A stretch of 63,720 nucleotides of DNA from Eggerthellaceae bacterium. GTDB lineage: Bacteria > Actinomycetota > Coriobacteriia > Coriobacteriales > Eggerthellaceae. Shown piece by piece: positions 31,017 to 33,750 of this stretch. Under the pieces are notes generated by a model. That model made no database searches. It saw only the letters and a program-made list of their open reading frames with translations, and was not told where the DNA came from. The stretch lies in the NCBI GenBank assembly GCA_017511465.1, contig JAFWJU010000098.1:1-63720 (forward strand). Reading direction: 5' to 3'. Position 1 is the first letter of the stretch. Each line of letters starts with the position of its first letter. A program made the translations under genes and the position numbers.

Positions 31017-32897
31017 TTGAAGAAGGTGCGACGTACTCTTTTACATAGCCTTATGGTGCTGCTCCTAACGTTCTACGTGTTGGGAGCAGCCGTTGTTGCT
31101 AGCGGTTGCTCGCCAGCCAACCAGGAGAGCTGGACGCTGTGCGTGTATCTTTGCGGATCGAATCTGGAATCCAAGCACTCGCGCGCCACGCAAACGCTCG
31201 ATGAATTGAAGAGCGCAAACATTCCCGCCAACGTAACGGTTGTTTTGGAAACAGGGGGTGCGAGGTCTTGGCATACGGACGACATGCGCAATGGCGGCAT
31301 ACAGCGCTTTGTGCTCGAGGAGCACCAGCTGAAGAACGTGGAGTCCCTGCCAGGTGATTCCATGGGAAGCCCCGAGACGCTTGCCTCCTTCTTGGAATAC
31401 TGCGCCACCGAATATCCTTCTGACCACTCGATGGTTGTGCTGTGGGACCATGGGGGAGGTCCGAATAGGGGAGTGTGCTTCGACGAGATGTACGGTTACG
31501 ATGCGCTTACGCTAGCCGACATCGGCAAGGCTTTCTCCTGGGGCGTTGAGGCTCGCAATGGAGCGCCGTACGACATAGTAGGTCTGGACGCGTGCCTGAT
31601 GGCCTCCTTGGAAACGGCCGCAATGCTCAAAGACGACGCGGCCTACATGGTGGCATCTCAAAACATAGAGCCGGGCGCAGGATGGGACTACACGCAACTT
31701 CCCCAGCAACTGGCTGCAACTGACAAGGACGGTATTACCTCCACCTGCACCGCTATCTGCGATGGGTACCGCAACAAGTGCGTACGCAACGGCAAGGGCG
31801 ACTCGATTACGCTCTCTGCAGTCGACCTGTCCAAAATCAACAGGGTCGAAACCGCCCTCAACGCCGTCGTATCCGCAGAAACGCAGGACCCCGGTGACTT
31901 GCGAGCCTTGCTGAACCAGCTCGTTATGGCTGCAAGGTCCGCTGAGTCGTTTGGCGCTGAAACCGATAGGGAAGGCGGAGCATCCAACCTGTACGACTTG
32001 GCTGAGATGGCCCAAAAGGGCTCAGCGTCGAAAGGATCGTCAAGCAAGGCGTTCGAGGAGCTTTCCCTTGCGGTAAAAGACGCGGTAATCTGCTCGGTGT
32101 ACGGTGTGGCGACAGCGGACGCCGCAGGTCTTTCCATTTATTACCCTGCCGACTACAACAAGAGCGCCCTGGCTTCTTACTGCGCCTCGACCCCACTCGA
32201 GGATTACGCCAAGCAGCTGGAACAACTCTACAGTGTCGCCGATGTAAAGGTCGAGTTCTCGGATCGCGGTTCCCTCAACGACGAGAACCAGTTTTGCGTA
32301 AGCATACCGCCTGACCTTATAGGCGGCATTTACGAGCTGCACATTGTTGTTCGCGGCACCGAGGGAGAGCCGCATGATGAGGAGAACATGGACATCGAAA
32401 GCGACTGGGAGTCCGGTACGTTTGCCCACGGAATGGACGACAGCATGTTTGCACTTGGCGGTGTTCCGCTTGACAGCCAGATGGTTGAATTCGACCGTGA
32501 GGACGGTCACATAATCTATACAGCTCCCATCAGCCTTAATGGGCAGCAAACAAACCTGCGCTTCGCCGAATTACTGGCTGACGATGGAACGTGGAACGTG
32601 AAGATGCTCGGCGTTTGGAGTGGCGTGGACCACGTGACGGGCCTTTCGGATCGATTGCTTTCCTCGTTGAAGCCATCGGATGTCGTGAGCTGCCTCTCGT
32701 CACGAACGGGAAGGACGATAGGCGAGGTTAAGGTTGACGAAACAACCGACATTACCCTGGAGCCTCTATCTCCCGGAGTGTACGATTGCTGGTATGTGGC
32801 TATTGACTTATACGGAAACGAGATAAAATCCGACGTGCTGACCTATCGCGTGTCCGACATGCAGACAACCGAGTTCATCTCCATCGAGCAAAAGTGA
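31017..32897 (+). CDS. Clostripain-type (C11) cysteine protease lipoprotein
   Basis: 626 residues. A signal peptide ending VVASGC (Cys31) is a lipobox, so the enzyme should be tethered outside the cell. The caspase-like C11 domain has catalytic His145 in VLWDHGGG and Cys193 in GLDACLMAS, with SIYYPADY near residue 380. The C-terminal 230 residues are beta-rich and probably extracellular. Clostripains cleave after Arg or Lys and are often self-activated. The start is a TTG with no clear ribosome site. It is the largest gene of the patch that also holds two precursor-like peptides. Confidence 0.85.
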   Translation: MKKVRRTLLHSLMVLLLTFYVLGAAVVASGCSPANQESWTLCVYLCGSNLESKHSRATQTLDELKSANIPANVTVVLETGGARSWHTDDMRNGGIQRFVLEEHQLKNVESLPGDSMGSPETLASFLEYCATEYPSDHSMVVLWDHGGGPNRGVCFDEMYGYDALTLADIGKAFSWGVEARNGAPYDIVGLDACLMASLETAAMLKDDAAYMVASQNIEPGAGWDYTQLPQQLAATDKDGITSTCTAICDGYRNKCVRNGKGDSITLSAVDLSKINRVETALNAVVSAETQDPGDLRALLNQLVMAARSAESFGAETDREGGASNLYDLAEMAQKGSASKGSSSKAFEELSLAVKDAVICSVYGVATADAAGLSIYYPADYNKSALASYCASTPLEDYAKQLEQLYSVADVKVEFSDRGSLNDENQFCVSIPPDLIGGIYELHIVVRGTEGEPHDEENMDIESDWESGTFAHGMDDSMFALGGVPLDSQMVEFDREDGHIIYTAPISLNGQQTNLRFAELLADDGTWNVKMLGVWSGVDHVTGLSDRLLSSLKPSDVVSCLSSRTGRTIGEVKVDETTDITLEPLSPGVYDCWYVAIDLYGNEIKSDVLTYRVSDMQTTEFISIEQK

Positions 32898-33058: not shown

Positions 33059-33289
33059 CTATTTTGATTTCCGATAGAGGTCATCGCATAAGCCTTTACA
33101 CAGAGTGCAGTTTACGTCGCTGCAGTCATCCCAAGTGCAGTCTGAATATAGGATACCGCCATTGATAGCCTTCAATTCCTCATCGGACAACTCATATCCC
33201 TCTTCTGCAACCAGCGCTAGCAGTTCCTCTGGGGTCTTGCATGCCTCGGCGCGTTTTCTGATGCTCTCAGGTACGTTTTCGAAATCCAT
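33059..33289 (-). CDS. RiPP-like precursor peptide 1: Nif11-type leader, five-Cys core
   Basis: 76 residues from an ATG at 33289 with AGGAAAG upstream. Residues 1-45 form an acidic leader with ACKTPEELLALVAEEGYELS and LKAINGG, matching Nif11-like / double-glycine RiPP leaders. The predicted core (46-76) has Cys at 51, 56, 61, 64 and 68 (CX4CX4CX2CX3C) plus many Asp, Ser and Thr. Such cores are normally crosslinked by a lanthipeptide synthetase or radical SAM enzyme, or folded with disulfides. Neither enzyme type nor an exporter is encoded within several kilobases. Confidence 0.72.
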   Translation of the reverse strand: MDFENVPESIRKRAEACKTPEELLALVAEEGYELSDEELKAINGGILYSDCTWDDCSDVNCTLCKGLCDDLYRKSK

Positions 33290-33321
33290 GTTCTTTCCTA
33301 TCCCGTATATGGGCTCTCCTG

Positions 33322-33334
33322 ATGATGACATCAT
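33322..33334. promoter_or_regulatory. Palindrome in the divergent precursor intergenic region
   Basis: ATGATG, one base, CATCAT: a perfect 6+1+6 dyad 33 bases upstream of precursor 1. Read leftwards it overlaps a TATGAT that could serve as a -10 element. It may be an operator; no regulator gene is adjacent. Confidence 0.3.
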
Positions 33335-33552
33335 ACGCTTTTCGGGTTGACCAATAGAGTCACCGTCGGCATTGCGTTGATGCTGGTGACGCTACTTGAA
33401 GTTCTCCAATCCCTGTCGCATCTAGACGTTTTGCATGCAGCTGGCCGAGTACCTCGTTGAATTTTGGATAGTAGGACAATCGCGCGATAGCCCATGTTTC
33501 AGTGATAAAACTATTCCGGCCCGACATGATGGCCAAAACAGAAAGAGGGAAA

Positions 33553-33750
33553 ATGGACATTGAGTTTGACGACCTGACTGATGAGCAGAAGGCACGAGTA
33601 ATGGCCTGCAAGACTGCCGAGGAGCTAGCTGCGCTTGCCGAGGCGGAGGGCGTGGAGCTCAGCGATGAGCAGCTTAATAGCGTTGCGGGAGGCGATAGCT
33701 TCTGGTGCCCCACTGCCACAAGCTGTCCGAATTATGAAGTCATGAGATAG
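33553..33750 (+). CDS. RiPP-like precursor peptide 2: Nif11-type leader, two-Cys core
   Basis: 65 residues from an ATG at 33553 with AGAGGGA upstream. The leader (1-47) has ACKTAEELAALAEAEGVELS and LNSVAGG, clearly homologous to that of precursor 1. The 18-residue core (48-65) is DSFWCPTATSCPNYEVMR: two Cys in CX5C, each followed by Pro, and a C-terminal Arg. It is not similar to the core of precursor 1. The gene is divergent from precursor 1 across 263 bases and has its own terminator. Confidence 0.72.
   Translation: MDIEFDDLTDEQKARVMACKTAEELAALAEAEGVELSDEQLNSVAGGDSFWCPTATSCPNYEVMR

Follow-up and report, generated by a model that had tools for sequence, protein, structure and literature searches.

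The locus described here raises the question of how two small peptide precursors with related leaders and dissimilar cores might be matured and exported when nothing in their surroundings appears able to do either. The window, which is the whole stretch of DNA analysed (63,720 nucleotides), corresponds to contig C85 in a draft genome of 1.89 Mb, approximately 90% complete. P1 (33059..33289, minus strand) encodes a precursor of 76 amino acids, recognised from its open reading frame, a Pfam Nif11 match above cut-off, the leader profile described below and an orthologue at loci L147 and L187. Its 45-residue leader ends in AINGG (33155..33289, minus strand), where the leader-profile match also ends, and is followed by a 31-residue core, ILYSDCTWDDCSDVNCTLCKGLCDDLYRKSK (33062..33154, minus strand; compared with L147), with a tryptophan at position 8 and five cysteines spaced CX4CX4CX2CX3C. 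P2 (33553..33750, plus strand) encodes 65 amino acids and is recognised from its reading frame, the leader profile and six relatives with the same core. A 47-residue leader ending in SVAGG (33553..33693, plus strand; from the sequence, leader profile and a motif count) precedes the 18-residue core DSFWCPTATSCPNYEVMR (33694..33747, plus strand; compared with the cores of relatives), which has a tryptophan at position 4 and two cysteines spaced CX5C. The earlier note on this DNA had credited both genes with good ribosome-binding sites and with quite different cores; both descriptions hold, AGGAAAG for P1 (33293..33299, minus strand) and AGAGGG for P2 (33544..33549, plus strand, three bases before the ATG) standing at plausible positions.

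The two genes are divergent, head to head, and separated by 263 bp (33290..33552, no strand assigned) in which a simple promoter scan detected no sigma-70-like site. A terminator-like hairpin lies 3' of P2 (33777..33792, plus strand), and the region holds five terminator-like sites against 0.7 ± 0.8 in shuffled sequence. A gene for a clostripain-family C11 peptidase (31017-32897) is convergent with P1, whilst three tRNA genes, for Val, Gly and Cys, adjoin P2 (33874-34314), the first at a distance of 124 bp. Proximity to tRNA genes was considered as a trait of the family and rejected, the density around 158 precursor copies being only slightly above background; a plasmid origin for P2 was dropped also, no match having been found. 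Profile searches for C39, LanC, YcaO, SPASM, the prenyltransferase-like family and the radical SAM clade discussed below gave no match anywhere on the 63.7-kb contig, extending to its full length the earlier observation that neither maturation enzymes nor a C39 transporter lie near the precursors.

The leaders place the two genes in a common family. They are 47% identical and, as the earlier note proposed, homologous and terminated by Gly-Gly. P1 matches the Pfam Nif11 model PF07862 above its cut-off (29.3 bits against 23.8, E 1.1e-6), whilst P2 falls below it (17.3 bits, E 0.006), and both are under the curated cut-off of 32.3 bits for TIGR03798 (24.7 bits for P1, 14.3 for P2); the Nif11/TIGR03798 search advised in the earlier note is thus borne out for P1 against Pfam and not otherwise. 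Judged by sequence, the leaders are of Nif11 type yet outside strict TIGR03798, being under its cut-off and shorter at 45-47 residues. C39 peptidases recognise a motif at positions -12, -8 and -7 of double-Gly leaders (PMC6363468). P1 carries the published residues L(-12), E(-8) and L(-7), and P2 has L(-12), Q(-8) and L(-7); positions -12 and -7 are hydrophobic in 141 of 141 relatives. A profile built from four leaders of this genome, those of P1, P2 and two other copies, recovers P1 and P2, themselves part of the profile, with E-values of 4.5e-26 and 3.8e-25, and the Nif11/double-Gly leaders support the view that these are RiPP-like precursors.

The same profile finds the further leader copies that the earlier note had suggested looking for: eight in this genome, namely P1, P2 and six others on contigs C57, C90, C99, C83 and C6, with a second copy on C83 interrupted by a stop. 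Those on C99, C83 and C6, together with the stop-bearing copy, form a subgroup with zinc-ribbon-like cores. More than 140 matches were found over 14 of 15 congeneric genomes, and none in the remaining one, G014. Leader-bearing relatives are metagenome-assembled genomes labelled Coriobacteriaceae, Eggerthellaceae or Atopobiaceae, many bearing labels that point to the rumen or ruminant gut, with more distant ones in Bacillota. In Lachnospiraceae and Erysipelotrichaceae (L238, L242, L254, L255, L257, L264) Nif11-leader genes stand in rows, as many as about ten within 6 kb, and their cores are zinc-ribbon-like (CPxCGS...CxxCGxxW); an AF2 model of one such Bacillota precursor is weak (pLDDT 66).

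If the precursors are dispersed, the means of export might be sought elsewhere in the genome. A search of the remaining contigs for C39 genes, also advised in the earlier note, located exporters of the NHLM type on C99 and C71, away from P1 and P2. Both exceed the cut-off of 853 bits for NHLM ABC1 (TIGR03796), at 940 and 936 bits respectively; for ABC2 (TIGR03797) C99 is above the cut-off and C71 scores 709.3 against 709.4. ABC1 is above cut-off in 13 of the 14 leader-bearing congeners and partial in G012, and the leaderless G014 gave only background ABC transporter scores. NHLM operons in the genus comprise genes for an ECF sigma factor, an HlyD-like protein, ABC1, ABC2, a STAS protein and a SpoIIE-type protein, mostly with no obvious modification enzyme. 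At L007 (G000:C71:20000-28600) and other NHLM loci an ECF sigma factor, a STAS protein and a HAMP-SpoIIE-HATPase protein accompany the exporter. The sigma factor and the latter two, which are partner-switching proteins, suggest by their placement beside the exporters that secretion may be regulated.

The cores reveal a pattern which the two genes considered alone would not. Amongst 141 precursors with a clear Gly-Gly, 105 have short cores (median 19 residues) and 36 have two CxxC motifs. Leaders share a mean pairwise identity of 54%, whereas short cores share 24%, against 21% for shuffled cores. Tryptophan is almost absent from the leaders, yet 78 of 92 non-redundant short cores contain it at one of their first eight positions (41 ± 4 in shuffles). 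It lies within the first five in 45 of 57 Coriobacteriia cores and in only 2 of 83 from Bacillota (P = 5e-23), 73 of the latter being zinc-ribbon-like with two CxxC motifs. Another short core that is conserved, [AST]WY[ND]CMNETW, was noted 3' of a tandem pair of the genes described below in other genera (L326, L334) and within the present genus (L135, L156).

The P2 core is itself conserved. The pattern DS[FW]WCPTATSCPNYE[VI]MR recurs in six further Coriobacteriales loci, unchanged from P2 in L215/L316 (RUG11205) and L335 and differing at one or two positions in L318/L221, L326, L330 and L332. Over the seven copies the pooled pN/pS is 0.085 for the core and 0.345 for the leader, so that the core is under the tighter constraint. 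The earlier picture of a conserved leader with hypervariable cores consequently stands between lineages and fails within them: since the P2 core recurs and is more conserved than its leader, the cores of the family do not vary freely. The orthologue of P1 in G008 (L147) has the core ILFSDCTWDDCGDVDCKLCKGLSK, which retains four of the cysteines and the tryptophan, and L187 (RUG12446) encodes the same peptide; the P1 core has been conserved whilst synonymous change is saturated. The frames and the Gly-Gly are maintained in both sets of relatives, L147 and L187 for P1 and the six loci for P2. DNA matches of P2 to L215 and L221 (85-88%) do not reach beyond the gene and its edges, which suggests that it may move as a unit; a second match of the region in L215 corresponds to the tRNA-Val gene of the window.

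A candidate partner for P2 emerges from its relatives. A gene for a protein of about 340 residues was noticed as the common downstream neighbour of the P2 relatives L215 and L221, and it lies downstream on the same strand in all six loci with a P2-type precursor. The protein matches no Pfam (E 0.1) or NCBIfam model. Of the 14 congeners with precursors 13 encode it (E < 1e-5; only a fragment in G012, none in G003), as do 63 of 397 genomes searched across Coriobacteriales, often as tandem pairs. Within the genus, among the matches listed and with random placement assumed for the expectations, a leader stands no more than 500 bp from 12 of 37 copies (0.4 expected, P = 4e-15), and an NHLM gene no more than 8 kb from 9 of 37 (P = 2e-8). 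Outside the genus a leader is found within 1.5 kb in 7 of 22 loci, and six of these seven leaders are of P2 type, upstream and on the same strand. About half of all copies have no leader match within 6 kb, the precursors adjoining the enzyme at L104 and L148 lack an early tryptophan, that of P1 comes only at position 8, and no such gene was found next to the orthologue of P1, all of which weigh against the prenylation reading. In tandem pairs (L318, L326, L330 and others) two subtypes can be told apart, scoring about 480-510 and 310-375 bits, and perhaps represent a heterodimer or two specificities.

An AF2 model of one member (pLDDT 89.3, pTM 0.87) shows a repeated helix/beta-hairpin pattern, and a Foldseek comparison with the PDB points to a predicted ABBA-type barrel. 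All 50 of the matches listed are aromatic or peptide/amino-acid prenyltransferases, mostly acting on tryptophan, including DMATS1, 5-DMATS from S. coelicolor, PriB, IptA, CymD, MpnD and FgaPT2, and DciF, which prenylates arginine, ranks lower; the best match has an E-value of 1.2e-6 and a probability of 1.00, with TM-scores only about 0.5. No homology to the Trp_DMAT sequence profile was detected (hhalign 0.5%), and searches of PDB sequences with the profile of the family, and with P2, gave no meaningful match. Of candidates for the catalytic Glu and the Arg, Lys and Tyr residues that bind diphosphate, E56, R178, K318, K330 and Y332 are invariant in 15 sequences of the family, so that the catalytic set of DMATS enzymes is conserved only in part. 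Several residues of the fungal enzyme FgaPT2 which we take to bind diphosphate are not conserved. The family is likely to consist of tryptophan prenyltransferases of DMATS fold, although a fold in a model does not prove activity.

In the organism of the window this partner may have been lost. Its gene (G000:C71:33205-34212) contains one in-frame TAG and the neighbouring copy is degenerate (L306:4206-5625, equivalent to G000:C71:33205-34624), so that, if the stop is not a fault of the assembly, P2 may be left here with no functional partner. In-frame stops were observed in copies from other genomes also. The broken enzyme would suit an account in which P1 and P2 are unmodified disulfide-bonded peptides, akin to class II bacteriocins and only cut and exported by NHLM; the scarcity of modification enzymes in the NHLM operons agrees with it, but an odd number of cysteines (one, three or five) in 47 of 92 short cores, the strong early-tryptophan bias and the modification enzymes beside related precursors render it unlikely. 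That P1 and P2 are non-functional remnants of horizontally moved genes has in its favour the want of a nearby partner, the P2-like matches that end at the gene edges, and the broken enzyme and C83 leader copies in the same genome. Yet the frames and ribosome-binding sites are intact, the P2 core is identical to that of L215 despite a core pS of 0.62, and the P1 core has outlasted saturation at synonymous sites, and we regard decay as quite improbable.

A second candidate maturase has an intact copy in this genome. The genome encodes three SPASM proteins, on C10, C31 and C99. Members of one radical SAM/SPASM clade are encoded 7-170 bp away from precursors at several loci in G005-G008, and others adjoin precursors in Atopobiaceae/Olsenella loci; again on random placement and for the matches listed, 12 of 80 SPASM matches fall within 2 kb of a precursor against 1.65 expected. 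The enzyme is thus encoded with the precursor in relatives, there is none beside P1 or P2, and the copy of this genome is the intact one on C10, 72-75% identical to four precursor-linked members. The nearest profiles are the TIGR04463, Clo7bot, CefB, geopeptide and PapB maturases, and no clade member reaches a curated NCBIfam cut-off; scores of 163-219 bits against 525 for TIGR04463, and values below all other cut-offs, mark a separate subfamily. A zinc-ribbon-like Nif11 precursor was also seen 8 bp from a TIGR04053-like radical SAM/SPASM protein in the NHLM operons of L006 (G000:C99) and L146 (G008:C2). It is conceivable that the main change is a radical SAM thioether or other cysteine crosslink of sactipeptide or ranthipeptide kind, installed in trans by the C10 enzyme, with the prenyltransferase-fold proteins relevant only in other species. 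The intact clade member, the adjacency in relatives, the kinship with TIGR04463, Clo7bot, PapB and geopeptide maturases and the five cysteines of P1 all speak for this, whereas the relatives of P2 adjoin the prenyltransferase-like gene and no clade enzyme was detected in their loci; nor can the product chemistry be read from sequence. We hold it as a tentative alternative.

Other routes have less to commend them. No LanC-like domain was found in this draft genome, in answer to the suggestion that a LanM-like gene be sought, and LanC occurs in only one of 15 congeners; YcaO is absent from this genome and from all 15. Lanthipeptide and thiazole (LAP/TOMM) routes are for this reason disfavoured and were rejected as general schemes. 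A prochlorosin-like system, in which a LanM encoded far away matures the lanthipeptides, would share the layout of many scattered Nif11 precursors and few enzymes (PMC2887384, PMC3140520), but given the distribution of LanC it is highly improbable here. The earlier conjecture that enzymes act from another locus is supported by exporters and candidate maturases on other contigs; that no maturation enzymes are visible no longer applies, since relatives bring into view the TIGR04463-like radical SAM/SPASM proteins, the ~340-residue family and the NHLM C39 exporters.

On balance we favour P1 and P2 as Nif11-type double-Gly precursors exported by NHLM, with cores modified by enzymes encoded elsewhere and with P2 belonging to a probably tryptophan-prenylated lineage. 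They would be stand-alone genes of a peptide family dispersed through Coriobacteriales, P2 an orphan copy of a peptide encoded elsewhere just upstream of a prenyltransferase-like gene and P1 its cysteine-rich sibling. Before export the cores would be modified by enzymes common to the whole genome: the near-invariant early tryptophan would be a likely target of the DMATS-fold family, and the cysteines of the TIGR04463-like maturase, the thioether type being suggested by relatives. The leader would dock on the NHLM peptidase-ABC exporter from C71 or C99, which would cleave after the Gly-Gly and secrete the core, perhaps as a signal or antagonist. In this organism P2 may be secreted unprenylated, one clade radical SAM enzyme being intact and the prenyltransferase-like gene apparently broken; prenylation may have been lost, or the TAG may be an assembly error.

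It is an evenly balanced proposition that ruminant-gut Coriobacteriales share an order-wide set of secreted, tryptophan-prenylated and partly radical SAM-crosslinked Nif11-leader peptides, made through an undescribed DMATS-fold family often present as tandem pairs, with the P2 core conserved across genera and perhaps serving as a ComX-like signal or antagonist. Orphan precursors which cluster-based mining would fail to connect with their enzymes are here tied to an exporter and candidate enzymes elsewhere, and a family with no database model gains a concrete and testable function. If prenylation is true, it would add a family of tryptophan prenyltransferases for Nif11-leader peptides, of use for attaching lipids to peptides, and the rumen community would contain a conserved lipopeptide.

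A number of parallels can be drawn with known systems. The literature covered, mainly open access, gave no description of dispersed short cores marked by tryptophan, of the prenyltransferase-like family or of a link between them. Nif11 precursors adjoining NHLM transporters have been reported for the coriobacterium Eggerthella lenta (Elen_2949/2953/2954), and clusters of this kind have been described as including radical SAM proteins; those genes are clustered, with 71-residue leaders and cores of 50-59 residues, and the available portions of the sources describe for them neither short Trp/Cys cores, nor dispersal, nor a prenyltransferase-like family (PMC4289311, PMC2887384). Prochlorosins and cyanobacterial N11P peptides resemble the present family in their large dispersed sets of Nif11 paralogues, diverse cores and NHLM C39 exporter (Haft 2010, PMC2887384; PMC3140520), but they rely on a LanM maturase, whereas here LanC is absent from 14 of 15 genomes and the cores are marked by tryptophan. 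A precedent is MppE, a Nif11-leader lanthipeptide whose core tryptophan is geranylated by MppC, a beta-barrel prenyltransferase that needs the leader (JACS 2025, PMC12715784). MppE is matured with a LanM, in contrast to the scattered precursors, missing LanC and radical SAM neighbours seen here and to a prenyltransferase-like family for which Pfam and NCBIfam have no model. Tryptophan prenylation of ribosomal peptides is common also to ComX/ComQ, PalQ and the cyanobactin enzyme KgpF; ComQ and PalQ are trans-IDS-like (PMC13290415), whereas the ~340-residue family models closest to DMATS.
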